From positions 1 to 64,000 of the forward strand of contig NZ_CALXRM010000011.1 of assembly GCF_944390845.1 (NCBI RefSeq): 64,000 nt of DNA, read 5' to 3'. The DNA is from an uncultured Brachyspira sp. (GTDB lineage: Bacteria > Spirochaetota > Brachyspiria > Brachyspirales > Brachyspiraceae). The notes beneath the pieces are model-generated. The model worked only from the letters and a program-made list of their open reading frames with translations. It was not told where the DNA came from and ran no database searches. The position numbers and the translations under genes were made by a program. Below, piece after piece: positions 16,891 to 20,145 of this stretch. Positions within the stretch are counted from its first letter, which is position 1; every line of letters starts with the position of its first letter.

Positions 16891-17496
16891 TTATTTTATA
16901 AGCTTTCTCATATATCTAAAGAAATCATCTTTTTCCTTAGGAGAAATCATACAAGTATTCAAAAAGACTTCCATAATTTCTTGATTAACACTGCCCATAG
17001 CTGCCTTAACAGCGAGAGACTGATTGAGTATATCTCCGCAATACTCGCCCTTAGCTAACATTTTCTTCATACCTTTAATTTGACCTTCAATTCTGTTTAA
17101 TCTGATAATAAGTCTCTTACGTCTTTCCAAAGCCTCCTCTCTATCAAATTTAGACACCTTGTTGCTATCACCAAAATGTTTATTCCAAGCTTTTAATCCC
17201 CCCTCTAGTACATAAAGATTGTTAAATCCTTCATCTTTCATATACTCTGCCGCTTTTACACTTAACTTGCCAACGGAACAATACAACATATAAGGAAGTT
17301 CTTTATCAAGCTTGGATATCTCCCTTTTAAACACTCTTGGCTTAAGGAAATCCATAGAAATGGAATCTTCAATCATACCCTCATAGTTATGCTCCATCTC
17401 TGTTCTTACATCGAGTATAACTATATTTTCGATATTTTTAATAATTTCGCCAGCCTCCGAAGGAGACACTATATTTAATCCATTTTCTATAACCAT
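16891..17496 (-). CDS. Rhodanese-CstR fusion, predicted persulfide-sensing repressor
   Basis: Two domains are fused in 201 aa. Residues 1-110 are a rhodanese: LDVRTEMEHNYEGMI, then the active-site loop CSVGKLS with Cys73. Residues 120-201 are a CsoR/CstR (DUF156) helical repressor: RLNRIEGQIKGMKKM, then Cys153 in YCGDIL and Cys182 in FLNTC. The His that copper-sensing CsoR places four residues before the last Cys is Phe178 here. Two cysteines without the His is the pattern of CstR, which senses per- and polysulfides. The rhodanese may hand sulfane sulfur to the sensor. It lies downstream of a CoA-disulfide/persulfide reductase, its probable target. The domains are seen; the sensing role is inferred. 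Confidence 0.85.
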   Translation of the reverse strand: MVIENGLNIVSPSEAGEIIKNIENIVILDVRTEMEHNYEGMIEDSISMDFLKPRVFKREISKLDKELPYMLYCSVGKLSVKAAEYMKDEGFNNLYVLEGGLKAWNKHFGDSNKVSKFDREEALERRKRLIIRLNRIEGQIKGMKKMLAKGEYCGDILNQSLAVKAAMGSVNQEIMEVFLNTCMISPKEKDDFFRYMRKLIK

Positions 17497-17602
17497 AATT
17501 TAAATCCTTAAAAAAATCTATTATATTAACTATTATATAAAAAAAATAGATTTTTACAAAATATTTTTTCAAAATAAAATACAAAAATAGTTTGTATTAC
17601 AT

Positions 17603-17665: not shown

Positions 17666-19354
17666 TTATTTGAAATATGATGTTAATATTGGTTTTCTTC
17701 CTGTAGTTTTATCATTATAGTATTCATATTGTGATAAACCTATAAATCCTCCTGAAACATTAACTACATTATCAAATCCCATATTTTGAAGTATTTTACA
17801 AGCAGTATAGCTGGTTAATCCTGTTTTACAAGTAATATATACTGTTCTGTCTCTAGGTATTTCATTATATCTGCTTCTTAAAGCTCCTAAAGGTATATTA
17901 ACAGCTTTTTCTAAGTGTCCTGCCGCAAAATCTTCAGGCATTCTTACATCTAAGAAATAAGAATCTTTTTCAACTAACTCTCTAACCTGACTATAATGTA
18001 CTTGCTTAAAATCTCCATTTCTTAAATTAGATGCTACATAACCAGCAAAATTAACTACATCTTTAGCAGTTCCGAATGAAGGAGCATAACATAATTCCAA
18101 ATCTTTCAAATCATCTATAGTTCCACCGAATTTTATAACTGTAGCTATAACATCTATTCTCTTATCAACATTTCCTCTGCCTATTGCCTGAGCACCTAAA
18201 ATTTTTCCTGTTGGTACTTCATATATAAGCTTGAAATGCATTAATTTTGTAGTAGGCATAATTGATACACCGTCAAAAGGAATTATATCAACTGTATCAT
18301 AGTCTATATTCAAATTCATAGCCTTAATAAAGCCTTCTGAAAGGCCTGTAGAAGCTCCATTATATCCAAATACTTTTATAACAGATGAACCTATAAATCC
18401 TCTGTTATCTACTGTTCTTCCATTAATATGATCTGCAACTGCTCTAGCTTGTTTTTGAGCAGGTCCAGCTAATGCCAATTTGAAATAATCATTAAATAAT
18501 GCTCCATAAACTTCTATAGCATCGCCTACTGCATAAATATCTTTATCATTAGTTCTGTAATTAGAATCAACTTTAATAGCCTTAGTTTTTCCAAGTTCTA
18601 TTCCTGCTTTAACTGCTATATCAGTTTCTGGTGCTACACCTATAGCGAGTATAACAGCATCAGCCTCTACTTTCTTTCCTGAAGCTAAAACTACTGTATT
18701 AGTATCAAAACTATCAACTTTATCATTAACAATTAATTCAACACCATTATCAATTAATTCTCTATGCAGAATTTGAACCATATCATAATCGAAAGGCTTC
18801 ATTATTTGAGGCAATGCTTCTACTATTGTAACATTATATCCGGCATGCTTTAAATTTTCAGCCATTTCAATACCTATAAATCCGCCGCCTATAACAGCTA
18901 CTTTAGCTTTAGGCTTGCCGTTAAGGAAATGATGTATTTTGCTTATATCAACAACATTTCTTACTGTAAATACATTAACTTTTTCTATTCCTTTAATAGG
19001 AGGAACTATAGGTTTAGCACCCATAGAAAGTATAAGTTTATCATAACTTTCTTTATATTCTTTACCCTCGCATACAACAGTAACTTCTTTTTTCTCTCTA
19101 TCTATAGCTATAACTTCACTATTAACTCTGGCATCAACATTAAATTGCTTTAAAAATTTCTCAGGCGACATAAGAAGTAAAGTTTCTTCATTAGGAATTA
19201 ATCCGCCTATATGATAAGGAAGCGAACAATTAGAAAATGATACATGAGGCCCTTTTTCAAACATTATTATTTTATCTTGTTCATTTAATCTTCTAAGCCT
19301 TGCAGCAGCTGAAGCTCCTCCTGCAACACCGCCTACTATTAATATTTTTTTCAT
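17666..19354 (-). CDS. CoA-disulfide/persulfide reductase with rhodanese domain
   Basis: FAD/NAD(P)H pyridine nucleotide-disulfide oxidoreductase fused to a C-terminal rhodanese (about 562 aa, typical of CoADR-Rhd/NPSR enzymes). The FAD motif is GGVAGGASAAARLRR. Cys43 in SFSNCSLPY is the single redox cysteine of CoADR. The NAD motif is VIGGGFIGIEMAENL. The terminal rhodanese has the loop CKTGLTS. It reduces CoA persulfide, polysulfide or CoA disulfide. I choose the ATG at 19354 because GGAG precedes it; a longer reading frame upstream overlaps the promoter. The adjacent rhodanese-CstR fusion suggests sulfide/persulfide control. Confidence 0.9.
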   Translation of the reverse strand: MKKILIVGGVAGGASAAARLRRLNEQDKIIMFEKGPHVSFSNCSLPYHIGGLIPNEETLLLMSPEKFLKQFNVDARVNSEVIAIDREKKEVTVVCEGKEYKESYDKLILSMGAKPIVPPIKGIEKVNVFTVRNVVDISKIHHFLNGKPKAKVAVIGGGFIGIEMAENLKHAGYNVTIVEALPQIMKPFDYDMVQILHRELIDNGVELIVNDKVDSFDTNTVVLASGKKVEADAVILAIGVAPETDIAVKAGIELGKTKAIKVDSNYRTNDKDIYAVGDAIEVYGALFNDYFKLALAGPAQKQARAVADHINGRTVDNRGFIGSSVIKVFGYNGASTGLSEGFIKAMNLNIDYDTVDIIPFDGVSIMPTTKLMHFKLIYEVPTGKILGAQAIGRGNVDKRIDVIATVIKFGGTIDDLKDLELCYAPSFGTAKDVVNFAGYVASNLRNGDFKQVHYSQVRELVEKDSYFLDVRMPEDFAAGHLEKAVNIPLGALRSRYNEIPRDRTVYITCKTGLTSYTACKILQNMGFDNVVNVSGGFIGLSQYEYYNDKTTGRKPILTSYFK

Positions 19355-19387: not shown

Positions 19388-19423
19388 TATACCTAGTATA
19401 TGTATAATACATAAATAAGTCAA
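19388..19423 (-). promoter_or_regulatory. Promoter with palindrome upstream of the persulfide reductase
   Basis: On the minus strand TTGACT (19423-19418) and TATACT (19400-19395) are 17 bp apart. The -10 box is part of the perfect inverted repeat TATAC-TAG-GTATA at 19388-19400. CsoR/CstR-type operators are often ATACC...GGTAT palindromes (general knowledge), so this may be the site for the rhodanese-CstR protein. Binding is inferred. Confidence 0.6.
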
Positions 19424-19548: not shown

Positions 19549-19746
19549 ATGGGAGTTTATTCTATTTATTCATCTGAAATGTTTCCATTGACTAGACATA
19601 TGACTTCTGCTGGATTAAATGTTTACAATTCTTCAGCTTATGGTTCTGCTCAATCTGCTGAGAAAGTTGCAAGCATAGTAACTCCTCAGGGATCATCTAT
19701 GCCAATCAATAATAATATTGGAAAGAATTTAGATGTGTATGCTTAA
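19549..19746 (+). CDS. YjfB-like small protein 1
   Basis: 65-aa protein without signal peptide or cysteines. It shares with the next gene the central pattern ...AEKVASIV.PQ and the C-terminal IGKNLDVYA. The second gene matches the putative motility family YjfB more clearly, so this is probably a diverged paralogue. It has its own ribosome site (TTTGGAGG) and a strong terminator, which fits high, independent expression. Role unknown. Confidence 0.6.
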   Translation: MGVYSIYSSEMFPLTRHMTSAGLNVYNSSAYGSAQSAEKVASIVTPQGSSMPINNNIGKNLDVYA

Positions 19747-19757
19747 TTATTGTTCCT

Positions 19758-19811
19758 GACCAATTGTGTTTTTTGAAATAATAAAAATGCAATTGGTCTT
19801 TAATTTTATTA
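19758..19811 (+). terminator. Terminator of YjfB-like gene 1
   Basis: Perfect 9-bp arms GACCAATTG (19758-19766) and CAATTGGTC (19790-19798), followed by TTTAATTTTATT. Confidence 0.75.
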
Positions 19812-19956
19812 AATTATGTAAACATTAAATTATCATAATATATTCCATAGTGTTTATTTTCTAATATTTTTATATAAATTAACTTGATAAAATATACGAT
19901 TGCTTTACAATTATAGAAGTAAATTGTTTTATTTATGTAAAGTAAGGAGGATAAAC

Positions 19957-20145
19957 ATGGATATTTCAGCTTATAATACTTATTCCACAGCAATGCTTAA
20001 ACAAGATGTATCTTTAAGTATGATAAGAAAAACTTCTGATATGCAAGCTCAAGCAGTAGATAAAATAATGAGCAGCGTTCAGCCTCAAGCTGTTTCTGCT
20101 CCTGTTAGACCTGGAATCGGTCAAAATTTAAATGTTTATGCATAA
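19957..20145 (+). CDS. YjfB-like small protein 2
   Basis: 62-aa protein of the putative motility family YjfB (MDISAYNTYSTAMLKQ, then VSLSMIRKTSDMQAQAV, ending PGIGQNLNVYA). An in-frame earlier start exists, but AAGGAGG lies six bases before this ATG, so the shorter form is chosen. It is a paralogue of the gene just upstream. It has its own terminator. The family occurs in flagellated bacteria; the biochemical role is unknown. Confidence 0.72.
   Translation: MDISAYNTYSTAMLKQDVSLSMIRKTSDMQAQAVDKIMSSVQPQAVSAPVRPGIGQNLNVYA

Follow-up and report, generated by a model that had tools for sequence, protein, structure and literature searches.

A conserved rhodanese-CsoR family fusion as a candidate CstR-type repressor of coaP in Brachyspira and Fusobacteriota

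Domain architecture of the fusion

The window, that is, the whole stretch of 64,000 nucleotides from an uncultured Brachyspira sp. analyzed here, carries an open reading frame of 201 amino acids (16891..17496, minus strand, coding sequence including the stop codon) for a putative rhodanese-CstR fusion repressor that is kept in Brachyspira and Fusobacteriota. The frame opens with an ATG preceded by AAGGAT, which resembles a ribosome-binding site, and a consensus scan placed a putative promoter of its own, TTGTAA-16-TATAAT, at 17532..17559 (minus strand), the −10 region of which is conserved in Brachyspira. Pfam assigned residues 15 to 106 to Rhodanese (PF00581; E value, 1e-13, far over the curated cutoff) and residues 126 to 190 to Trns_repr_metal (CsoR/RcnR, DUF156, PF02583; E value, 6e-20), the latter with 71.9 bits against a curated cutoff of 22.8 bits. 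The sequence-only reading had claimed that a rhodanese, with Cys73, and a CsoR-family repressor are joined in one protein, and these two domains, in a frame spanning exactly these positions, confirmed it.

An AlphaFold2 monomer model built from 14 sequences (mean pLDDT, 80.5) showed a rhodanese fold, a low-confidence linker, and a three-helix CsoR-type domain. The N-terminal rhodanese domain covers residues 1 to 107 (17176..17496, minus strand), as judged from PF00581 and from the fold found by AlphaFold2 and Foldseek; it is followed by a linker of residues 108 to 118 (17143..17175, minus strand) that is predicted to be flexible, with a pLDDT below 50 at residues 111 to 115. The C-terminal CsoR/CstR repressor domain, residues 119 to 201 (16894..17142, minus strand), is defined by PF02583, by helices modeled at residues 119 to 149, 153 to 181, and 186 to 200, and by the DNA-contact motif RLNR, which corresponds to the RLXR motif (PMC3902906). 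Foldseek matched the model to many rhodaneses, and no rhodanese-CsoR fusion was among the PDB matches listed.

The protein contains cysteines at positions 73, 153, and 182 and no others, a count that applies to Brachyspira, and residue 178 is a phenylalanine. Cys73 (codon 17278..17280, minus strand), the predicted sulfur-carrying catalytic cysteine, lies in the loop C-S-V-G-K-L-S and is retained in a stand-alone rhodanese homologue as well as in the aligned fusions, so that the fold and the loop cysteine expected of a rhodanese are both present. Cys153 (17038..17040, minus strand), which aligns with the first cysteine of CsoR/CstR, and Cys182 (16951..16953, minus strand) are the predicted first and second sensor thiols, and Phe178 (16963..16965, minus strand) stands in place of the copper-ligand histidine of CsoR. 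The two-cysteine CstR pattern that had been claimed for Cys153 and Cys182 was recovered, in a register shared with 4m1p and 7mq1. All four residues, Cys73, Cys153, Phe178, and Cys182, are invariant in every aligned fusion, across two phyla and at identities down to about 46%.

Distribution and conservation

A search for the fusion across genomes, which the sequence-only reading had proposed as a check, showed an intact copy in 22 of the 26 Brachyspira genomes, a frameshifted copy in one more, and none in the other three; 12 of 98 Fusobacteriota genomes also have the fusion. None was found among the other Spirochaetota searched (393 Spirochaetota genomes in all), and none in searches of plasmids; phyla beyond Spirochaetota and Fusobacteriota were covered by a short-peptide scan of genome contigs, the reach of which is fairly close relatives. 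No second CsoR-family protein was found in the window's genome, where the fusion is the sole member. In the Brachyspira pairs compared, dN was far below dS in both domains, indicating that both are under purifying selection, with the repressor domain showing the smaller dN of the two. For the window and B. hampsonii, dN/dS values were 0.090/1.17 (rhodanese) and 0.023/1.10 (repressor domain).

A rhodanese-only homologue is present in Ilyobacter-like genomes, in the same neighborhood as the divergent fusion of one fusobacterial genome, G448 (L130:6239-6862, L131:6830-7195); the repressor half was therefore lost or gained there. In B. pilosicoli T010 (L047:405-1005; also G013:C290), the two halves of the fusion are put out of frame by a 1-base deletion (A7 to A6) at about codon 127. 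The split falls at the domain boundary and leaves the second domain intact in a different frame; it may stem from misassembly, be a genuine break, or mark a slippage site.

Gene context

Directly upstream of the fusion, on the same strand, lies a coaP-like gene (17666..19354, minus strand) encoding a predicted CoA-disulfide/CoA-persulfide reductase of 562 amino acids with a C-terminal rhodanese. Almost all of the protein can be aligned with Enterococcus faecalis CoAPR (8a56) and Bacillus anthracis CoADR-RHD (3icr), and it has a cysteine at both catalytic positions. In E. faecalis, coaP is repressed by CstR (PMC9405070). In the window, scanning of the region that separates coaP from the fusion gave no terminator; stem-loops followed by T-runs are visible between the two genes in relatives. 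No RNA elements were found in the window with Rfam.

A coaP homologue stands beside the fusion in 10 of the 12 fusobacterial cases, most of them with YeeE-type sulfur transporters. As for the remaining two, the G448 fusion adjoins two rhodanese-domain (rhodanese-repeat) proteins and that of G395 ends at a contig end. In the B. pilosicoli group, the fusion and coaP are not linked. The fusobacterial YeeE/YedE-type transporters occur in one or two copies, between coaP and the fusion or beside coaP (L043:3266-4522, L045:1151-3764), and are probably coregulated with them. The idea that the fused rhodanese is a copy of the rhodanese of CoAPR itself was rejected on the basis of the domain tree.

Candidate operator

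The coaP promoter, TTGACT-17-TATACT (19395..19423, minus strand), was located by consensus scan and is conserved in relatives. When the coaP promoters were compared, a stretch covering the −10 box proved almost invariant, and the conservation of TAC-N9-GTA defines a candidate operator, TAC-ATATACTAG-GTA (19390..19404, minus strand), which overlaps this box. TAC-N9-GTA was present in all 25 coaP promoters compared across both phyla, these loci being not all independent since several are close relatives, versus 12 of the 204 regions that lie upstream of other open reading frames in the same sequences. The same arrangement, TAC-X9-GTA, is the inverted repeat required by Streptomyces CsoR (PMC3902906). 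The main Brachyspira clade has the operator as TACATATACTAGGTA and the B. pilosicoli group has it as TACCTATACTATGTA; among the fusobacterial forms is TACTGGGTATGGGTA. The G-tracts of classic CsoR sites are absent from the Brachyspira operator and present in the fusobacterial ones.

Genome-wide, the pattern ATACNTATACTANGTANAT was found at the coaP promoter of all 23 fusion-bearing Brachyspira genomes; it was absent from the three Brachyspira genomes that have neither the fusion nor coaP, and a reversed control pattern gave 0 matches. One additional copy, ATACATATACTAGGTAGAT, precedes a rubrerythrin-like gene in the window's genome only (G000:C22:21165-21183; L163), where it is possibly a second target or a chance match. 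With the stricter pattern TTGNTATACTN7GGTA, each of nine fusobacterial fusion genomes gave one match, at the coaP promoter, while fusobacterial genomes without the fusion gave about as many matches as with the reversed control pattern. TAC-N9-GTA stays with coaP where coaP is unlinked to the fusion, as in the B. pilosicoli group. G012, which its fusion locus (L042) identifies as B. pilosicoli PC5538III-hc, retains only about the first 14 codons of coaP (L150:1484-1610); the promoter and TAC-N9-GTA persist before the stump, and the fusion regulator of this genome is intact.

No TAC-N9-GTA was found in the promoter of the fusion itself in the window, and the window's fusion is therefore probably not autoregulated; the divergent G448 fusion has a G-tract TAC-N9-GTA, TACCCTAGGGGGGTA, just before its own start. 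Two other candidates were set aside. An 8-bp-arm palindrome upstream of the fusion, AATACAAA-N5-TTTGTATT, was rejected as an operator, as it is not conserved within the genus, and a 15-bp palindrome, ATATACTAGGTATAT, found once per genome in 18 genomes, was superseded when its conserved part proved, on comparison with Fusobacteriota and the B. pilosicoli group, to be the TAC-N9-GTA core. A putative role of the fusion as the repressor of coaP, acting through TAC-N9-GTA, is well supported by these sequence comparisons.

Class of the repressor

Around position 178, the fusion reads IMEVFLNTC, GtCsoR (4m1p) reads LLERHANHC, and SpCstR (7mq1), with an asparagine there, reads ITENLTEC. Two CsoRs of Fusobacteriota linked to copper-type ATPases (L133 and L135) keep the histidine (ILENHLRKC and ILEGHLKHC). 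The replacement of the CsoR histidine by Phe178, as first read from the sequence, thus stands in comparison with GtCsoR and with both of these proteins. A Fusobacterium-type genome, G393, has two members of the family. One is the Phe-containing fusion, with a YeeE-type sulfur transporter and a coaP homologue as neighbors; the other is a His-containing CsoR of a single domain, which adjoins a heavy-metal (copper-type) P-type ATPase. By gene content, this genome is a natural control for copper versus sulfur sensing.

The fusion shares with CstR the PF02583 domain, two cysteines at the x and z positions, and the lack of a histidine at the copper-ligand position, to which a DNA-contact motif, RLNR, and a candidate CsoR-type operator at a sulfur-gene promoter can be added, both read from sequence only. 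It departs from the usual single-domain size of CstR, perhaps not a defining trait, having 201 amino acids and an N-terminal rhodanese, and we therefore describe it as a fused CstR-like variant rather than as CstR proper. In a domain tree, based on short domain fragments with long branches, the CsoR domains of the fusions did not group with SpCstR. Overall, the following give good support to the putative assignment as CstR type: the Cys-Phe-Cys arrangement, the linkage to a CoA-persulfide reductase, the CsoR-type operator, and the fact that operator and regulator are found in exactly the same Brachyspira genomes.

Proposed mechanism

We consider it probable that the fusion represses coaP as a persulfide-responsive regulator of the CstR type and that its sensor thiols are loaded by the attached rhodanese. 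At rest, the C-terminal domain would sit on TAC-N9-GTA over the −10 box of coaP and block transcription of the CoA-persulfide reductase gene. Repressor domains of the CsoR/CstR family are tetramers. Upon a rise in sulfane sulfur, Cys73 of the rhodanese would accept sulfur from a CoASSH-like low-molecular-weight persulfide, polysulfide, or thiosulfate and pass it to Cys153/Cys182, where a di-, tri-, or tetrasulfide link would form, as in CstR. The linked repressor would then leave the DNA, CoAPR would be made, and CoASSH would be reduced to CoA and H2S. DNA binding, the tetrameric state, and the polysulfide chemistry of the fusion are those that we infer by analogy with its relatives.

The internal hand-off from Cys73 to Cys153/Cys182 is plausible, and we infer it purely from the existence of the fusion, from the three conserved thiols, and from the open acceptor of the separate rhodaneses of CstR operons. 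Thiosulfate rhodaneses commonly have arginines in the loop; the CSVGKLS loop of the fusion has none, suggesting that thiosulfate may not be the donor and pointing to persulfides instead. Known CstRs sense persulfides without an attached rhodanese, so sensing in itself does not require the domain. The fusion may, as a more tentative suggestion, constitute a one-protein relay, in which the rhodanese would take sulfur from one particular donor and place it on the sensor thiols of the same tetramer, such that the donor choice of the rhodanese, and not the general reactivity of the sensor, would set the response.

Alternative explanations

The fusion could have been two genes merged by a frame or annotation error, as the different frames of the two halves in one B. 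pilosicoli assembly might suggest, but that copy differs at the split from its relatives by one A in the A7 run, and a single open frame is found in 22 Brachyspira and 12 Fusobacteriota genomes. Since the one-frame fusion is conserved over two phyla, we rejected a sequencing or ORF-calling artifact, the chance of which appears negligible. A role as a CsoR/RcnR-type sensor of copper or another metal would be in keeping with the family membership, with the names RicR, FrmR, and RcnR among the weak matches, and with the two retained cysteines, but it is very improbable: the histidine ligand has become phenylalanine in all aligned fusions, copper-ATPase-linked CsoRs of the same phylum retain it, and the neighbors of the fusion are sulfur genes. 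Instead of the Cys-His-Cys Cu(I) site of CsoR, the fusion has Cys-Phe-Cys, and it lacks the linkage to, or operator at, copA/copZ that characterizes CsoR. In the window's genome, copA, the copper ATPase gene, lies on a separate contig (C12), and no TAC-N9-GTA was found upstream of it. A copper response had been named at the outset as the result that would speak against persulfide sensing; with no histidine and with copA elsewhere and free of TAC-N9-GTA, the genomic evidence is to the contrary and makes copper sensing by the fusion unlikely.

The role of the rhodanese leaves more room for doubt. In a CstR-type coaP repressor, it could be a tethered pathway enzyme, a sulfur buffer, or a reset device that strips or disposes of the sensor's sulfur, and not a feeder. 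The CstR operon of E. faecalis contains separate rhodaneses, RhdA and RhdB (PMC9405070), so that the fusion may simply unite two members of one pathway, and both the faster evolution of the rhodanese domain and the rhodanese-only homologue of Ilyobacter-like genomes agree with such a role. A repressor acting at one operator per genome would nonetheless make a poor bulk enzyme, and the promoter of the fusion mostly lacks the operator, implying that the fusion would not be induced in the manner of an effector enzyme; we regard this role as unlikely, though deserving attention. Inactive rhodanese folds are known as ligand-binding or oligomer-shaping sensory domains, and a catalytically inert rhodanese of this kind would explain a CSVGKLS loop without the usual arginines and a dN above that of the repressor domain. 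Inert rhodaneses, however, usually lose the catalytic cysteine, whereas Cys73 is kept in all aligned copies and in the stand-alone homologue, which makes an inert domain quite improbable.

Comparison with known systems

The CstRs of Staphylococcus aureus, E. faecalis, and Streptococcus pneumoniae (7MQ1/7MQ2) resemble the fusion in their CsoR-family domain, their two sensor cysteines, and the absence of a histidine ligand, and, as proposed for the fusion, they control sulfur genes, that of E. faecalis controlling coaP itself. They are, however, single-domain proteins of about 85 to 90 amino acids, while the fusion adds an N-terminal rhodanese and, in Brachyspira, an AT-rich operator; the identity between its repressor domain and SpCstR is low, and the tree leaves their grouping open. 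CoAPR (8A56) and CoADR-RHD (3ICR) have the two-domain layout and the catalytic-position cysteines of the fusion's neighbor, which is the proposed target and not the regulator; the source of the fused rhodanese lies elsewhere.

ScCsoR of Streptomyces coelicolor and YrkD of Bacillus licheniformis are CsoR-type repressors that sense sulfane sulfur, ScCsoR binding the palindrome ATACCn6GGTAT (PMC7533328, PMC9918477). Their cysteine-based sensing and their control of sulfur genes are as proposed for the fusion, but in these systems the rhodanese is a separate protein. CsoR (Geobacillus thermodenitrificans 4M1P; L133 and L135) shares the family and the RLxR DNA-contact motif, and the candidate operator fits the TAC-X9-GTA rule known from Streptomyces CsoR; the copper site is Cys-His-Cys in CsoR versus Cys-Phe-Cys in the fusion. 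Finally, S. aureus CstA and CstB, from a CstR-controlled operon, join a rhodanese to a sulfur-relay or sulfur-oxidizing domain, but these are enzymes or carriers, whereas in the fusion the partner of the rhodanese is the transcriptional sensor itself.

Among the open-access papers searched, we found no description of a rhodanese-CstR architecture, although it may stand, unstudied, in domain-architecture databases. The route by which sulfane sulfur gets to persulfide sensors inside cells is an open question; in E. faecalis, according to PMC9405070, neither the donors nor the acceptors that the CstR-controlled rhodaneses use in the cell are known. The existence of a rhodanese-CstR fusion in nature suggests an answer, namely, enzyme-assisted loading of the sensor. 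As the Brachyspira protein has just three cysteines and apparently a single target gene, three point mutants could put this to the test. If the relay is true, CstR itself would, by analogy, be the missing acceptor of the separate RhdA/RhdB rhodaneses elsewhere. Many anaerobic gut spirochetes and Fusobacteriota inhabit sulfide-rich places, and the fusion provides a defined candidate sulfur-stress regulator for both; together with coaP, it looks like a compact sulfur-stress switch.

Other observations

The window's genome encodes a YeeE-like protein of 361 amino acids on another contig (G000:C34:30943-31944; L139, L140), in which the Sulf_transp profile appears in swapped order, positions 162 to 308 preceding positions 1 to 110, as if the protein were permuted or internally repeated; no TAC-N9-GTA was found upstream of its gene. 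In the window, at 19549-20145 on the plus strand, two small open reading frames of 65 and 81 amino acids have similar ends (PQGSSMPINNNIGKNLDVYA and PQAVSAPVRPGIGQNLNVYA) and resemble tandem copies from a single family of small proteins.
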